Source of the DNA: Bradyrhizobium commune
GTDB taxonomy: Bacteria; Pseudomonadota; Alphaproteobacteria; Rhizobiales; Xanthobacteraceae
Direction of reading: 5' to 3'
Assembly (NCBI RefSeq): GCF_015624505.1
Contig: NZ_CP061379.1
Coordinates: forward strand, 6,882,001 to 6,946,000
DNA length: 64,000 nucleotides
Of the stretch, positions 28,994 to 32,073 are shown piece after piece. How positions within the stretch are numbered: position 1 is the stretch's first letter; each line of letters begins with the position of its first letter. The position numbers were made by a program, and so were the translations under genes. The notes under the pieces are model-generated. The model ran no database searches and was not told the DNA's origin. It worked only from the letters and a program-made list of their open reading frames with translations.

Positions 28994-29068
28994 TGGTGGG
29001 CACGACAGGGATCGAACCTGTGACCCCTACCATGTCAAGGTAGTGCTCTCCCGCTGAGCTACGTGCCC
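28994..29068 (-). tRNA. tRNA-Val (anticodon GAC)
   Basis: The minus strand from 29068 folds as a complete tRNA: acceptor GGGCACG/CGTGCCC, D-arm GCTCAGCGGGAGAGC, anticodon arm CTACC-TTGACAT-GGTAG, and T-arm with GGTTCGATCC. The loop TTGACAT gives anticodon GAC (Val, GUC/GUU). The 3' CCA is encoded (28994-28996). Seventy-five bases, no intron, no missing arm. Confidence 0.96.
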
Positions 29069-29502: not shown

Positions 29503-29875
29503 GGCAGGAACGTTGAATCCCCAAGGGCAATCACAAGACGATCACAAGGCATCGGCAGAGGTCACTAAGCCCGACAGACGGTAAATTTCGGGTGAAAATC
29601 TTTACCCTGGGCGGCTTGCGCGACCGGCTCTTTGTGAACCGGAACGGGCCCCAAATCAATCGAGCCGCGCCGCCAAATCCGCAGGCAGATGCCCGCAGGG
29701 TTAAGACGTGTTCCAGTGCCGATCACACTTTTTCGCTTGGCAGAATGATTGCGATTCCGGACAATGACGACACATAAGAGCCGTTCGACCGGCCGAATCA
29801 CTTTGATCCGGACCTTGCCGGATGCTGCGGCACCACGGGACGAAGCCTGAGAATTTAGGGACGAAGCCTGAGAAG
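29503..29875. other. Intergenic region of 373 bp with a 17-bp direct repeat
   Basis: Two exact copies of GGGACGAAGCCTGAGAA lie at 29837-29853 and 29858-29874, with a 21-bp period, immediately upstream of the amidohydrolase start. The period is seven codons and in frame, so an upstream start (ATG 29822) would add a seven-residue tandem repeat to that protein. Nothing else is seen between cpdR and this point. Confidence 0.6.
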
Positions 29876-30766
29876 ATGACCCGGTTTGACGGCGACGTGT
29901 CGCCAGCCTTCGAGATCGTAGAGCCCGCCGAATGGCGCGCGCCTGTGATTTTCAACTCGCCCCATTCCGGCTCGACCTACCCGGACGAGTTCCTGAACGC
30001 CTCGCGGATCGATTTGCCGACGCTGCGGCGCTCGGAAGATTCCTTCATGGACGAGCTGATCGGCCATTTGAGCGAGCGCGGCTTTCCGACCGTGCGGGTC
30101 AACTTTCCCCGCTCCTATGTCGACGTCAATCGCGAGCCCTATGAGCTCGATCCCCGCATGTTCACCGGCCGACTGCCGAGCTTTGCCAATACCCGCTCGA
30201 TGCGCGTCGCGGGTGGGCTCGGCACCATCCCGCGCGTGGTCGGCGACGGCCAGGAGATCTATCGCGACCGCATCCTGGTCGATGACGCGCTGGCGCGGAT
30301 CGAGACGCTGTACAAGCCCTACCATCGCGCCCTGCGCCGGCTGATCAACAAGGTGCACCAGATGTTCGGCACCGTGGTGCTGGTCGATTGCCACTCGATG
30401 CCCTCGGTCGGCGTCAGCAGAGACGAGCCGCGCCGGCCCGACGTCGTGATCGGCGACCGTTACGGCACGAGCTGCACGCCGCTATTGCCCGACCGGGTCG
30501 AGGAGACCATGAGCGGGCTCGGCTATTCGATCGGCCGCAACAAGCCCTATGCCGGCGGCTTCATCACCGAGCATTACGGCAATCCGGCGAGCGGGCTGCA
30601 TGCGGTGCAGCTCGAACTCAACCGCGCGATCTACATGGACGAGCGGCGGCGCGAGCGCGGTCAGCGCTTTGCGCAAGTGGCAAACGACTTCGCAGTGCTC
30701 GCCGACGTGCTGGCCACGACGATTCCGTTCGGCGATCTCGGCCCGTTCCAGGCCGCGGCGGAATAA
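29876..30766 (+). CDS. N-formylglutamate amidohydrolase family protein
   Basis: The start is ATG 29876 (MTRFDGDVSPAFEIVEP). The 296-residue protein has the family pattern: PVIFNSPHSGSTYP near the start, VNFPRSYVDVNREPYELDPRMF, VLVDCHSMPS with metal-binding Asp-Cys-His, GDRYGTSC, and PYAGGFITEHYG. The named reaction releases formate from N-formylglutamate (histidine degradation), but no hut genes are near. In alphaproteobacteria this paralogue travels with cpdR and hisN. Soluble, no signal peptide. Confidence 0.9.
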   Translation: MTRFDGDVSPAFEIVEPAEWRAPVIFNSPHSGSTYPDEFLNASRIDLPTLRRSEDSFMDELIGHLSERGFPTVRVNFPRSYVDVNREPYELDPRMFTGRLPSFANTRSMRVAGGLGTIPRVVGDGQEIYRDRILVDDALARIETLYKPYHRALRRLINKVHQMFGTVVLVDCHSMPSVGVSRDEPRRPDVVIGDRYGTSCTPLLPDRVEETMSGLGYSIGRNKPYAGGFITEHYGNPASGLHAVQLELNRAIYMDERRRERGQRFAQVANDFAVLADVLATTIPFGDLGPFQAAAE

Positions 30767-30862
30767 ACGCTCAGTTTTTCCAACGATCGCGTCGCGCGCG
30801 ATTGGCGCGAACAGGTTTTCACTTCGCATCAACGCGCGCATGAAAATGAAAACCGAGAGCCA

Positions 30863-30897
30863 AAGAAAAAGGGCCGCTTCTGATGAAGAAGCGGCCC
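30863..30897 (-). terminator. Rho-independent terminator of the candidate sRNA
   Basis: A perfect 10-bp GC-rich stem (30871-30880 with 30888-30897, loop of seven) is followed on the minus strand by TTTTTCTTT. On the plus strand no T-run follows, so it terminates minus-strand transcription. No protein gene on the minus strand lies upstream for more than 2 kb, which points to a local RNA gene. Confidence 0.85.
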
Positions 30898-30953
30898 AAG
30901 TCTAGGGAGGAAACGCCCAAGGAGGGCAGCGGTAACGCAGAGCGCTACCGCAC
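30863..30953 (-). ncRNA. Candidate trans-acting small RNA with two anti-Shine-Dalgarno motifs
   Basis: On the minus strand a -35 TTGCAC (30983-30988) and a -10 CATATT (30960-30965) with a 17-bp spacer predict a start near 30953. The transcript would fold into three hairpins. The first is a 10-bp stem GCGGTAGCGC/GCGTTACCGC with a UCU loop. The second is GCCC-UCCUU-GGGC. The third is a 10-bp terminator stem GGGCCGCTTC/GAAGCGGCCC followed by five U. The second loop carries CUCCUU, complementary to AAGGAG, and the linker before the terminator carries CCUCCC. No frame of convincing coding quality overlaps. Length is about 91 nt. I see all parts in the sequence; expression is inferred. Confidence 0.72.
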
Positions 30954-31290
30954 CGCAACAATATGCGGCCGCGACGCACAAAGTGCAAGGGCTTTCGAGC
31001 CGTTTCCCATGCAAAACGCACATAGCTCAATTGCTTTAAAAGAAACCCAGATTCAGTTTCTTTGATAAGGAAATTCAATGGGTTGATAGTCATTTGCATA
31101 CGAACAAGGCATGGTCGGAACTAAGCTTTCAACTCTATGATCGATATTTGGCCAGCAGATGGCTCGGATGAGGCAGTGTCACGCCGCATTCAAAATACCA
31201 GGGTGCAAGATTAAGACAGCGCTGCCCGTCTCCGGCGATTTGAGCTAGGCAGAGGCGAACTTCACCCGACTTTCGTTTTGAGGATGTGCC

Positions 31291-32073
31291 GTGACGGTGA
31301 TCGACTTCTCAGCCTTCATCGGACGGCTTGCCACCGCCTCCGGCGAAACCATTTTGCCGTTCTTCCGCACCTCGCTGTCGATCGACGACAAGAGCAAGAC
31401 GAAAGATTTCGATCCCGTCACCGAAGCCGACCGCGCCGCGGAAGCGGTGATGCGGCGGCTGATCAAGGCCAACTTTCCCCAGCATGGCATCGTCGGCGAG
31501 GAATTCGGCAATGAGCGCGAGGACGCCGACTATGTCTGGGTGCTCGACCCCATCGACGGCACAAAATCCTTCATTGGCGGCTTTCCGATCTGGGGCACGC
31601 TGATCGCGCTGCTGCACAAGGGCACGCCGGTGTTCGGCATGATGCATCAGCCCTTCATCGGCGAGCGCTTTTCCGGCGACAACGGCTCGGCCAACTATAA
31701 AGGCCCCTCCGGCGAGCGCCGGCTCCAGGTCCGCCGCTGCGCCTCGCTGTCGGAGGCGACGACCTACACCACCAGCCCGTTGCTGATGAACGAGCGCGAT
31801 CGCGGCATTTTCGGACGAGTTGAGAAAGGCGTGCGGCTGTCGCGCTATGGCGGCGACTGCTACTCCTATTGCATGCTGGCCGCCGGCCACGTCGATCTCG
31901 TGGTCGAGACCGAGCTGAAGCCTTACGATATCGCAGCGCTGATCCCGATCGTGACCGGCGCCGGCGGCGTCGTCACCACCTGGGAAGGCAAGCCCGCACA
32001 GGGCGGCGGCCGCATCATCGCCGCCGGCGATGCGCGGGTTCACCAAGAAGCACTGAAACTGCTCAACGGATAA
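31291..32073 (+). CDS. hisN: Histidinol-phosphatase (inositol monophosphatase family)
   Basis: The 260-residue protein belongs to the Mg-dependent IMPase fold. Motifs are DPVTEADRAAE, then IVGEEFG (Glu ligand), then WVLDPIDGTKSFIGGFP (catalytic Asp-Pro-Ile-Asp-Gly-Thr), and near the end ELKPYDIAALIPIVTGAGG. The spacing and GTKSFIGG fit the HisN branch that dephosphorylates L-histidinol phosphate in actinobacteria and alphaproteobacteria. GTG 31291 follows AGGA with a six-base spacer. It has 17 bp to the next gene on the same strand. Confidence 0.88.
   Translation: MTVIDFSAFIGRLATASGETILPFFRTSLSIDDKSKTKDFDPVTEADRAAEAVMRRLIKANFPQHGIVGEEFGNEREDADYVWVLDPIDGTKSFIGGFPIWGTLIALLHKGTPVFGMMHQPFIGERFSGDNGSANYKGPSGERRLQVRRCASLSEATTYTTSPLLMNERDRGIFGRVEKGVRLSRYGGDCYSYCMLAAGHVDLVVETELKPYDIAALIPIVTGAGGVVTTWEGKPAQGGGRIIAAGDARVHQEALKLLNG

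Follow-up and report, generated by a model that had tools for sequence, protein, structure and literature searches.

An FGase/hisN-linked alpha-r8 (MmgR, Rfam suhB) small RNA gene of Bradyrhizobium commune with an exposed anti-Shine-Dalgarno linker and PhaR-operator-like sites at its promoter

What is encoded on the minus strand between the N-formylglutamate amidohydrolase (FGase) gene and the hisN/suhB-type gene of Bradyrhizobium commune, and how might its product act? Within the 64,000-nucleotide stretch of DNA that was analyzed (the window), an earlier note, made from the sequence alone, had placed a candidate small RNA (sRNA) at 30863-30953 and had ascribed to it the repression of many mRNAs through two anti-Shine-Dalgarno (anti-SD) motifs. 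Judged by its sequence, the minus-strand sRNA gene is real, and it is the FGase/hisN-linked chromosomal copy of alpha-r8 (MmgR, Rfam suhB RF00519), an RNA that is already known. As a whole, the locus is best explained (with a probability of about 0.8) as encoding an FGase/hisN-linked, trans-acting alpha-r8 sRNA that would serve as an anti-SD repressor and would be modulated by PhaR/AniA. The parts of the locus are as follows.

29822-30766, plus strand: FGase gene, the convergent neighbor (PF05013, 248.2 bits).
30862-30870, minus strand: U tract UUUUUCUUU, directly 3' of the terminator hairpin in the sequence.
30863-30953, minus strand: presumed sRNA transcript of about 91 nt, the start being placed from the -10 position (sequence parts, fold, Rfam RF00519).
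30871-30897, minus strand: terminator hairpin of 11 pairs (8 GC), 6 of the 11 changed on both sides.
30904-30913, minus strand: linker 10-mer UUUCCUCCCU, the predicted exposed anti-SD seed, common to the alpha-r8 family (passages of PMC12559287).
30914-30928, minus strand: hairpin 2 of the predicted fold, loop UCCUU, with 0 pairs changed on both sides.
30929-30951, minus strand: hairpin 1, GCGGUAGCGC-UCU-GCGUUACCGC, mostly beyond the Rfam model, with 4 of 10 pairs changed on both sides.
30949-30957, minus strand: PhaR-operator-like core 2, TGCGGTGCG, spaced 21 bp from core 1, 3' of the -10 element and across the presumed start.
30960-30965, minus strand: putative -10 element CATATT, the same in 32/32 genus copies and in 80/80 FGase-chosen loci (best 80 of 586).
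30970-30978, minus strand: PhaR-operator-like core 1, TGCGTCGCG, which fits YGCRNYGCR (consensus from PMC12542648), within the -35/-10 spacer.
30983-30988, minus strand: putative -35 element TTGCAC; a TTG hexamer 17 nt ahead of CATATT is kept in 80/80 FGase-chosen loci (best 80 of 586).
31291-32073, plus strand: hisN/suhB-type inositol monophosphatase family gene, the divergent neighbor (PF00459, 199.2 bits).

The promoter-like -35/-10 pair and the three hairpins with a terminator, both described in the earlier note, were recovered on the minus strand where it had placed them. The hexamers TTGCAC (30988-30983) and CATATT (30965-30960), separated by 17 nt, match the sigma-70 consensus in 3/6 and 4/6 positions, respectively; the pair scored under the threshold of a simple promoter scan, which did not report it. 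The 91-nt minus-strand stretch 30953-30863 is predicted to fold into three hairpins with an energy of -48.1 kcal/mol, compared to a mean of -25.4 kcal/mol for shuffled sequences (z = -8.48), and none of 200 dinucleotide shuffles was equally stable. The terminator has 11 pairs and the tail TTTTTCTTT, and 30760-31300 contains no other terminator-like site; because shuffles of this region average 1.1 such sites, the terminator match taken alone carries little weight. In the predicted fold, the linker 10-mer is unpaired with a probability of 0.94-1.0, in agreement with the exposure of CCUCCC that had been claimed. Loop 2 had been said to expose CUCCUU; this does not hold, as the unpaired letters are UCCUU and the preceding C is base-paired (unpaired probability 0.0).

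The Rfam scan (cmscan) that the note had proposed as a check returned RF00519 (suhB, "Makes More Granules Regulator RNA") at 30934-30856, minus strand, with 74 bits against a cut-off of 41; the match covers model positions 1-77 of 77, and most of hairpin 1 lies outside the model. Because of this match, the sRNA belongs to a known family, and a new sRNA family was rejected; thus, the minus-strand sRNA of the note stands, whereas its standing as a new candidate does not, the family having been published in 2005. Two Rfam matches reach the gathering threshold in the 64-kb window, RF00519 and a tRNA (28997-29068, minus strand, RF00005, 68.9 bits). Weak matches to SorY, sbrA and two snoRNA families were far under their cut-offs and were discarded; the weak matches on the sRNA, three in number, each take in its terminator hairpin.

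The suhB family was described by Corbino et al. (2005) as a noncoding RNA opposite suhB that is flanked by a promoter and a terminator and of which Bradyrhizobium japonicum has five copies (PMC1273637); in the main texts of two B. japonicum transcript papers, neither suhB nor mmgR occurs. According to passages of reviews, including PMC7143759, MmgR of Sinorhizobium meliloti is a 77-nt Hfq-dependent RNA that limits polyhydroxybutyrate (PHB) accumulation, and passages of PMC7143759 name NtrC as its inducer and AniA as its repressor. The phasin effect of MmgR is worded differently in passages of two reviews, one of which has phasins over-expressed in the mutant. The sRNA of the window resembles MmgR in its full-length RF00519 match, in its three stem-loops with an anti-SD motif (as in passages of PMC7143759), and in an operator-like PhaR site at the promoter. 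It also has the features by which passages of PMC12559287 define alpha-r8, namely a single-stranded UUUCCUCCCU after a weak hairpin and a Rho-independent terminator, and it shares the linkage of the main alpha-r8 copy to the FGase gene, with PF05013 adjoining. Given the published work on MmgR/suhB and on SisA-D of Caulobacter, the candidate is therefore of a known kind at a known locus. It can be annotated with Rfam, and the unguided first reading amounts to a clean recovery of a real sRNA gene.

The RF00519 model was matched in 40/40 genomes drawn from the genus, in 52 of 61 order genomes (45 over the cut-off) and in 22 of 80 phylum genomes (16 over the cut-off), with this genome included in each count. 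FGase and hisN both flank the sRNA in 31 of 32 loci (L001, L003-L032 and L168), the exception being L003. Another set of loci was chosen by the FGase protein and comprises the best 80 of 586 candidates, 77 of them titled Bradyrhizobium and three Alphaproteobacteria bacterium; it shares some genomes with the 40-genome genus draw, although the way of choosing is separate. Among these best 80 of 586, all 80 loci carry the sRNA, once each, TGCCCTCCTTGGGCGTTTCCTCCCTAGACTT is identical in 79, and hairpin 1 keeps 10/10 pairs in 77, the remaining loci being two in which the pattern failed and one with six pairs; the hairpin 1 variants that keep the pairs include GCGGTAGCGC/GCGCTATCGC and GCGGTAGGGC/GCCCTATCGC. 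It should be noted that the genus, wider and PhaR-core segment rows were picked with the string GGGCGTTTCCTCCC, so that seed conservation in these rows is by construction; the seed counts free of this choice are 80/80 for the FGase-chosen loci (best 80 of 586) and 17/20 for the fetched paralog loci. TTTCCTCCC is absent from five of L043-L088 (L084-L088).

Covariation was assessed in 27 of the 48 distinct genus rows, paralogs included. In the real structure, 93.7% of cells pair, which is above all 500 shuffles and compares to 39 to 63% in slid versions, and the covariation score of 0.185 exceeds that of each of the 500 shuffles and of every slid version (0.047 to 0.093). Both sides changed in 10 of 25 pairs, a number that 0/500 shuffles reach; however, the slid controls at -1 to -3 have 8 to 11 such pairs, as many as the real structure, and therefore this count alone does not separate the structure, which is set apart from the slid versions by the cells paired and the covariation score. 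By element, the pairs changed on both sides are four in hairpin 1, six in the terminator and none in hairpin 2, and because of the latter, hairpin 2 is without covariation support. The conservation and compensatory stem changes among relatives on which the note had staked its candidate are thus present.

The linker 10-mer UUUCCUCCCU is, in our analysis, most likely the working anti-SD element, as printed for Caulobacter SisA. Passages of PMC12559287 report that SisA-D of Caulobacter crescentus, which belong to alpha-r8, share this 10-mer, and that SisA pairs through it with the 5' UTR of a target, the pairing being confirmed by compensatory mutation; the FGase-linked copy corresponds to sisA. 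The same source describes the Caulobacter RNA CrfA as a sponge, whereas no perfect-match sponge was seen in this genome in a search that covered exact complements: AGGGAGGAAA occurs four times, twice as the antisense strand of the two sRNA genes, once as the ribosome-binding site (RBS) of a MaoC-family gene, and once (L039) in DNA that has the look of coding sequence.

Two other ways of reading the element have to be weighed against a trans-acting RNA with a single constant seed. Since the element lies directly upstream of hisN, it could be a cis-acting leader or terminator element of hisN/suhB. We consider this extremely improbable: by sequence only, the sRNA gene is on the strand opposite to hisN/suhB and has its own promoter layout and terminator, unlinked sRNA paralogs exist, and Corbino et al. 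(2005) judged the cis reading unlikely (PMC1273637); a hisN leader was rejected on the strand and on that judgement. The two-motif design of the note corresponds to an AbcR-like action, in which the anti-SD motifs of loop 2 and of the linker work independently. The predicted fold leaves UCCUU entirely unpaired in loop 2, hairpin 2 is invariant in 80/80 FGase-chosen loci (best 80 of 586), and passages of the review PMC7143759 have the first-loop anti-SD motif of MmgR predicted to take part in targeting and give AbcR1/AbcR2 of rhizobia, too, three stem-loops and CU-rich anti-SD motifs. However, loop 2 is UCCUU in only 20 of 30 wider rows (L001 plus 29 of 42 wider segments) and in 10 of 16 additional paralog segments of the genus, being different in the other 10 and 6; for the second copy in this genome, a different fold is predicted at hairpin 2; and the proven pairing in the alpha-r8 family uses the linker 10-mer (passages of PMC12559287). 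AbcR1/AbcR2 also differ in having two anti-SD elements compared to one constant element here, in their locus (beside lsrB in S. meliloti, passages of PMC7143759) and in their Rfam family. No match at the gathering threshold other than RF00519 and the tRNA was obtained in the 64-kb window, and, in a library expected to include an AbcR model, a match to AbcR (alpha-r15) was found neither at the gathering threshold nor up to E = 1 in 30700-31300. The two conserved anti-SD motifs in unpaired regions that characterize AbcR were not found, loop 2 being variable in relatives, and filing the sRNA as AbcR was rejected on the RF00519 match and on the linker as the only constant motif. An AbcR-like action thus appears improbable. 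Of the two motifs in the note, the linker, constant and exposed, is upheld and loop 2 is not; of the broader proposal that the sRNA represses many mRNAs by anti-SD pairing, the exposed motif remains and the two-motif design is lost.

Passages of PMC7143759 and PMC12559287 state that direct mRNA targets of MmgR are not identified, and we looked for RBSs complementary to the linker. In 40 genus genomes, GGGAGGAAAC at 0-8 nt before ATG (the AAAC form) has 247 sites, compared to 67 for AAAG, 110 for AACA and 146 for ACAA in the same search; when any of the four letters is allowed at the last position, the total is 517 sites. The AAAC form outnumbers AAAG in 37/40 genomes, AACA in 36/40 and ACAA in 31/40. 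Over the genus, the RBS context that is complementary to the sRNA is thus over-represented; this genome by itself does not show the excess, and in it AAAC accounts for two of seven GGGAGGAAA sites compared to three for AACA and five for ACAA. Orthologous genes are counted repeatedly in the genus totals of GGGAGGAAAC, which are therefore not independent, and at least three sites correspond to the antisense strand of sRNA genes.

We fetched 20 of the GGGAGGAAAC sites, which were picked for recurring spacer strings, so that the following gene tallies are no sample: a MaoC-family hydratase at six sites (this genome included), a membrane protein of 55-79 aa at seven (absent from the matches of this genome), a protein whose signal, judged by eye, is twin-arginine-like at four (this genome included), and three others. 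The candidate target sites are AGGGAGGAAACGCGATG for the MaoC gene and GGGAGGAAACCATG for the secreted-protein gene. At the MaoC site of this genome, a 13-nt pairing with the sRNA has a predicted energy of -26.5 kcal/mol; the outer three sRNA nucleotides belong to hairpin 2. This gene (L160, G000:C1:1659900-1661210) has the RBS AGGGAGGAAACGC, a 13-nt perfect complement of the sRNA, and in five other fetched genomes, chosen for the motif, the MaoC gene keeps AGGGAGGAAAC. The membrane protein, from seven genomes chosen for the motif (L148-L154), ends in FIVPSQSV[HR]W and has the RBS GGGAGGAAACAACAATG; one copy was scanned and had no Pfam match. Predicted pairing with the RBSs of six phasin genes is -22.5 kcal/mol for L036, -16.0 kcal/mol for L037 and -10.1 to -14.4 kcal/mol for the other four; because four of six are weaker than -15 kcal/mol, the phasin link of S. 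meliloti MmgR is not clearly reproduced in this genome.

Control of the promoter is the remaining part of the question. Passages of PMC12542648 give the S. meliloti PhaR consensus as WNWD2NYGCRNYGCRNH2WNW and report that PhaR shifts an mmgR promoter fragment and that altered palindromes in tested promoters abolished PhaR shifts; a related short box, NGCN3GC[GA]N3, has been proposed for B. diazoefficiens (passages of PMC10888616). Two YGCRNYGCR cores, each with a matching left arm, lie at the promoter in the window (30984-30970 and 30963-30949), compared to the one PhaR site listed for S. meliloti mmgR in passages of PMC12542648. At least one core is present in 32/32 genus FGase-linked copies (shuffled mean 0.76), in 32 of 38 order/class segments (shuffled mean 0.52; L078 and L082, without the picking string GGGCGTTTCCTCCC, drop out of this count) and in 1 of 18 unlinked genus segments (L003). 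The pair at 21 bp is found in 32/32 genus FGase-linked copies and in 79/80 FGase-chosen loci (best 80 of 586); 17 order/class segments have at least two cores, 11 at 21 bp, five at 19-20 bp and one as an overlapping pair. In the window, the tandem (12 nt between cores) occurs once, at the sRNA promoter, while shuffles average 0.19; the pattern was written after the sites had been seen, and 17 of 100 shuffles have at least one tandem. The left-arm form of the core is not over-represented in the window (8 versus 13.0 in shuffles). We found no published description of the tandem arrangement in a search outside which the main S. meliloti promoter papers lay, and this is no proof of novelty.

The presence of the core pair on FGase-linked copies (79/80, best 80 of 586), compared to a core in 1/18 unlinked paralogs, suggests PHB-responsive control. 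Alternatively, a different regulator could bind the pair, or the pair could simply arise from GC-rich sequence in the promoter and hairpin 1: such a short core is frequent in this DNA (1.4 per kb per strand, 176 on both strands of the window), the first 3 nt of hairpin 1 are shared with core 2, and the full consensus with both AT-rich arms is found in 0/32 genus copies and 5/38 order/class segments, for which reason we infer, rather than observe, PhaR binding; its direction of control is likewise putative. We nevertheless regard this alternative as unlikely, because letters within the core differ between copies although its pattern and, among the genus copies, the spacing of 21 bp are kept, genus paralogs with a similar hairpin 1 are without the core, S. 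meliloti PhaR binds the mmgR promoter (passages of PMC12542648), and two phasin promoters of the same genome carry a close core pair, L033 with two palindromes around TTGACT and L038 with two cores 19 bp apart. Among the six phasin promoters, L034 has two cores far apart and L035-L037 have none. The palindromes of L033 are at -103 and -74 upstream of the ATG, a layout that matches the one published for S. meliloti phasins (passages of PMC12542648).

Copy number varies in the family: S. meliloti has one alpha-r8 copy compared to two in this genome. The second copy (5467195-5467272; L002:1501-1578; 52 bits) adjoins a COX4_pro-family (cyoD-like) gene, has a different 5' hairpin (CAATCCG-GCTT-CGGATTG) and is without a PhaR core; its other neighbor is nuclease-like by eye. 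Other genus members have up to 12 RF00519 matches at E <= 0.001, some of which are below the cut-off, with 9 to 12 such family matches in some of them (G010, G037; L168-L183). In G010, two copies 370 kb apart on a 402,731-base contig lie in a run that is identical over at least 4.5 kb (L169, L170), which looks like a duplicated segment. The linker 10-mer is present at the hit in 17 of the 20 fetched paralog loci, most with different upstream DNA; the three without it (L173, L177 and L178, with 55.8, 34.8 and 34.7 bits) are all from G010. In other families of the order, four loci (L045, L046, L053, L060) contain a tandem sRNA pair, and in all four the PhaR cores are upstream of one copy only.

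In the preferred reading of an FGase-linked, trans-acting alpha-r8 RNA, the gene would be transcribed leftward in this strain from its own promoter as an RNA of about 90 nt, which the intrinsic terminator would end and the U tail of which probably loads Hfq. The exposed linker UUUCCUCCCU would then pair, with the aid of Hfq, with GGGAGGAAA-type RBSs, and this pairing may repress the translation of several mRNAs. The PHB sensor PhaR/AniA probably modulates transcription through the pair of operator-like sites that lies over the promoter with a spacing of 21 bp, and the output of the sRNA would therefore follow carbon-storage status. A more far-reaching proposal, which we put forward tentatively and at somewhat less than even odds, is that FGase-linked alpha-r8 is an order-wide PHB-sensing riboregulator, in which the tandem PhaR operator (21 bp, two helical turns) ties granule status to the silencing, by the seed, of a conserved set of GGGAGGAAAC-started mRNAs. 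If this is true, the targets in Bradyrhizobium would include a secreted protein and a membrane protein of 70 aa in addition to a MaoC-type (mesaconyl-CoA or enoyl-CoA) hydratase, and the dispersed paralogs, which share the seed but are without the operator, would therefore act on the same target set under other signals. The target context yields testable predictions for direct mRNA targets of MmgR, and the operator pair yields testable predictions on why many alphaproteobacteria keep this sRNA beside the FGase gene.
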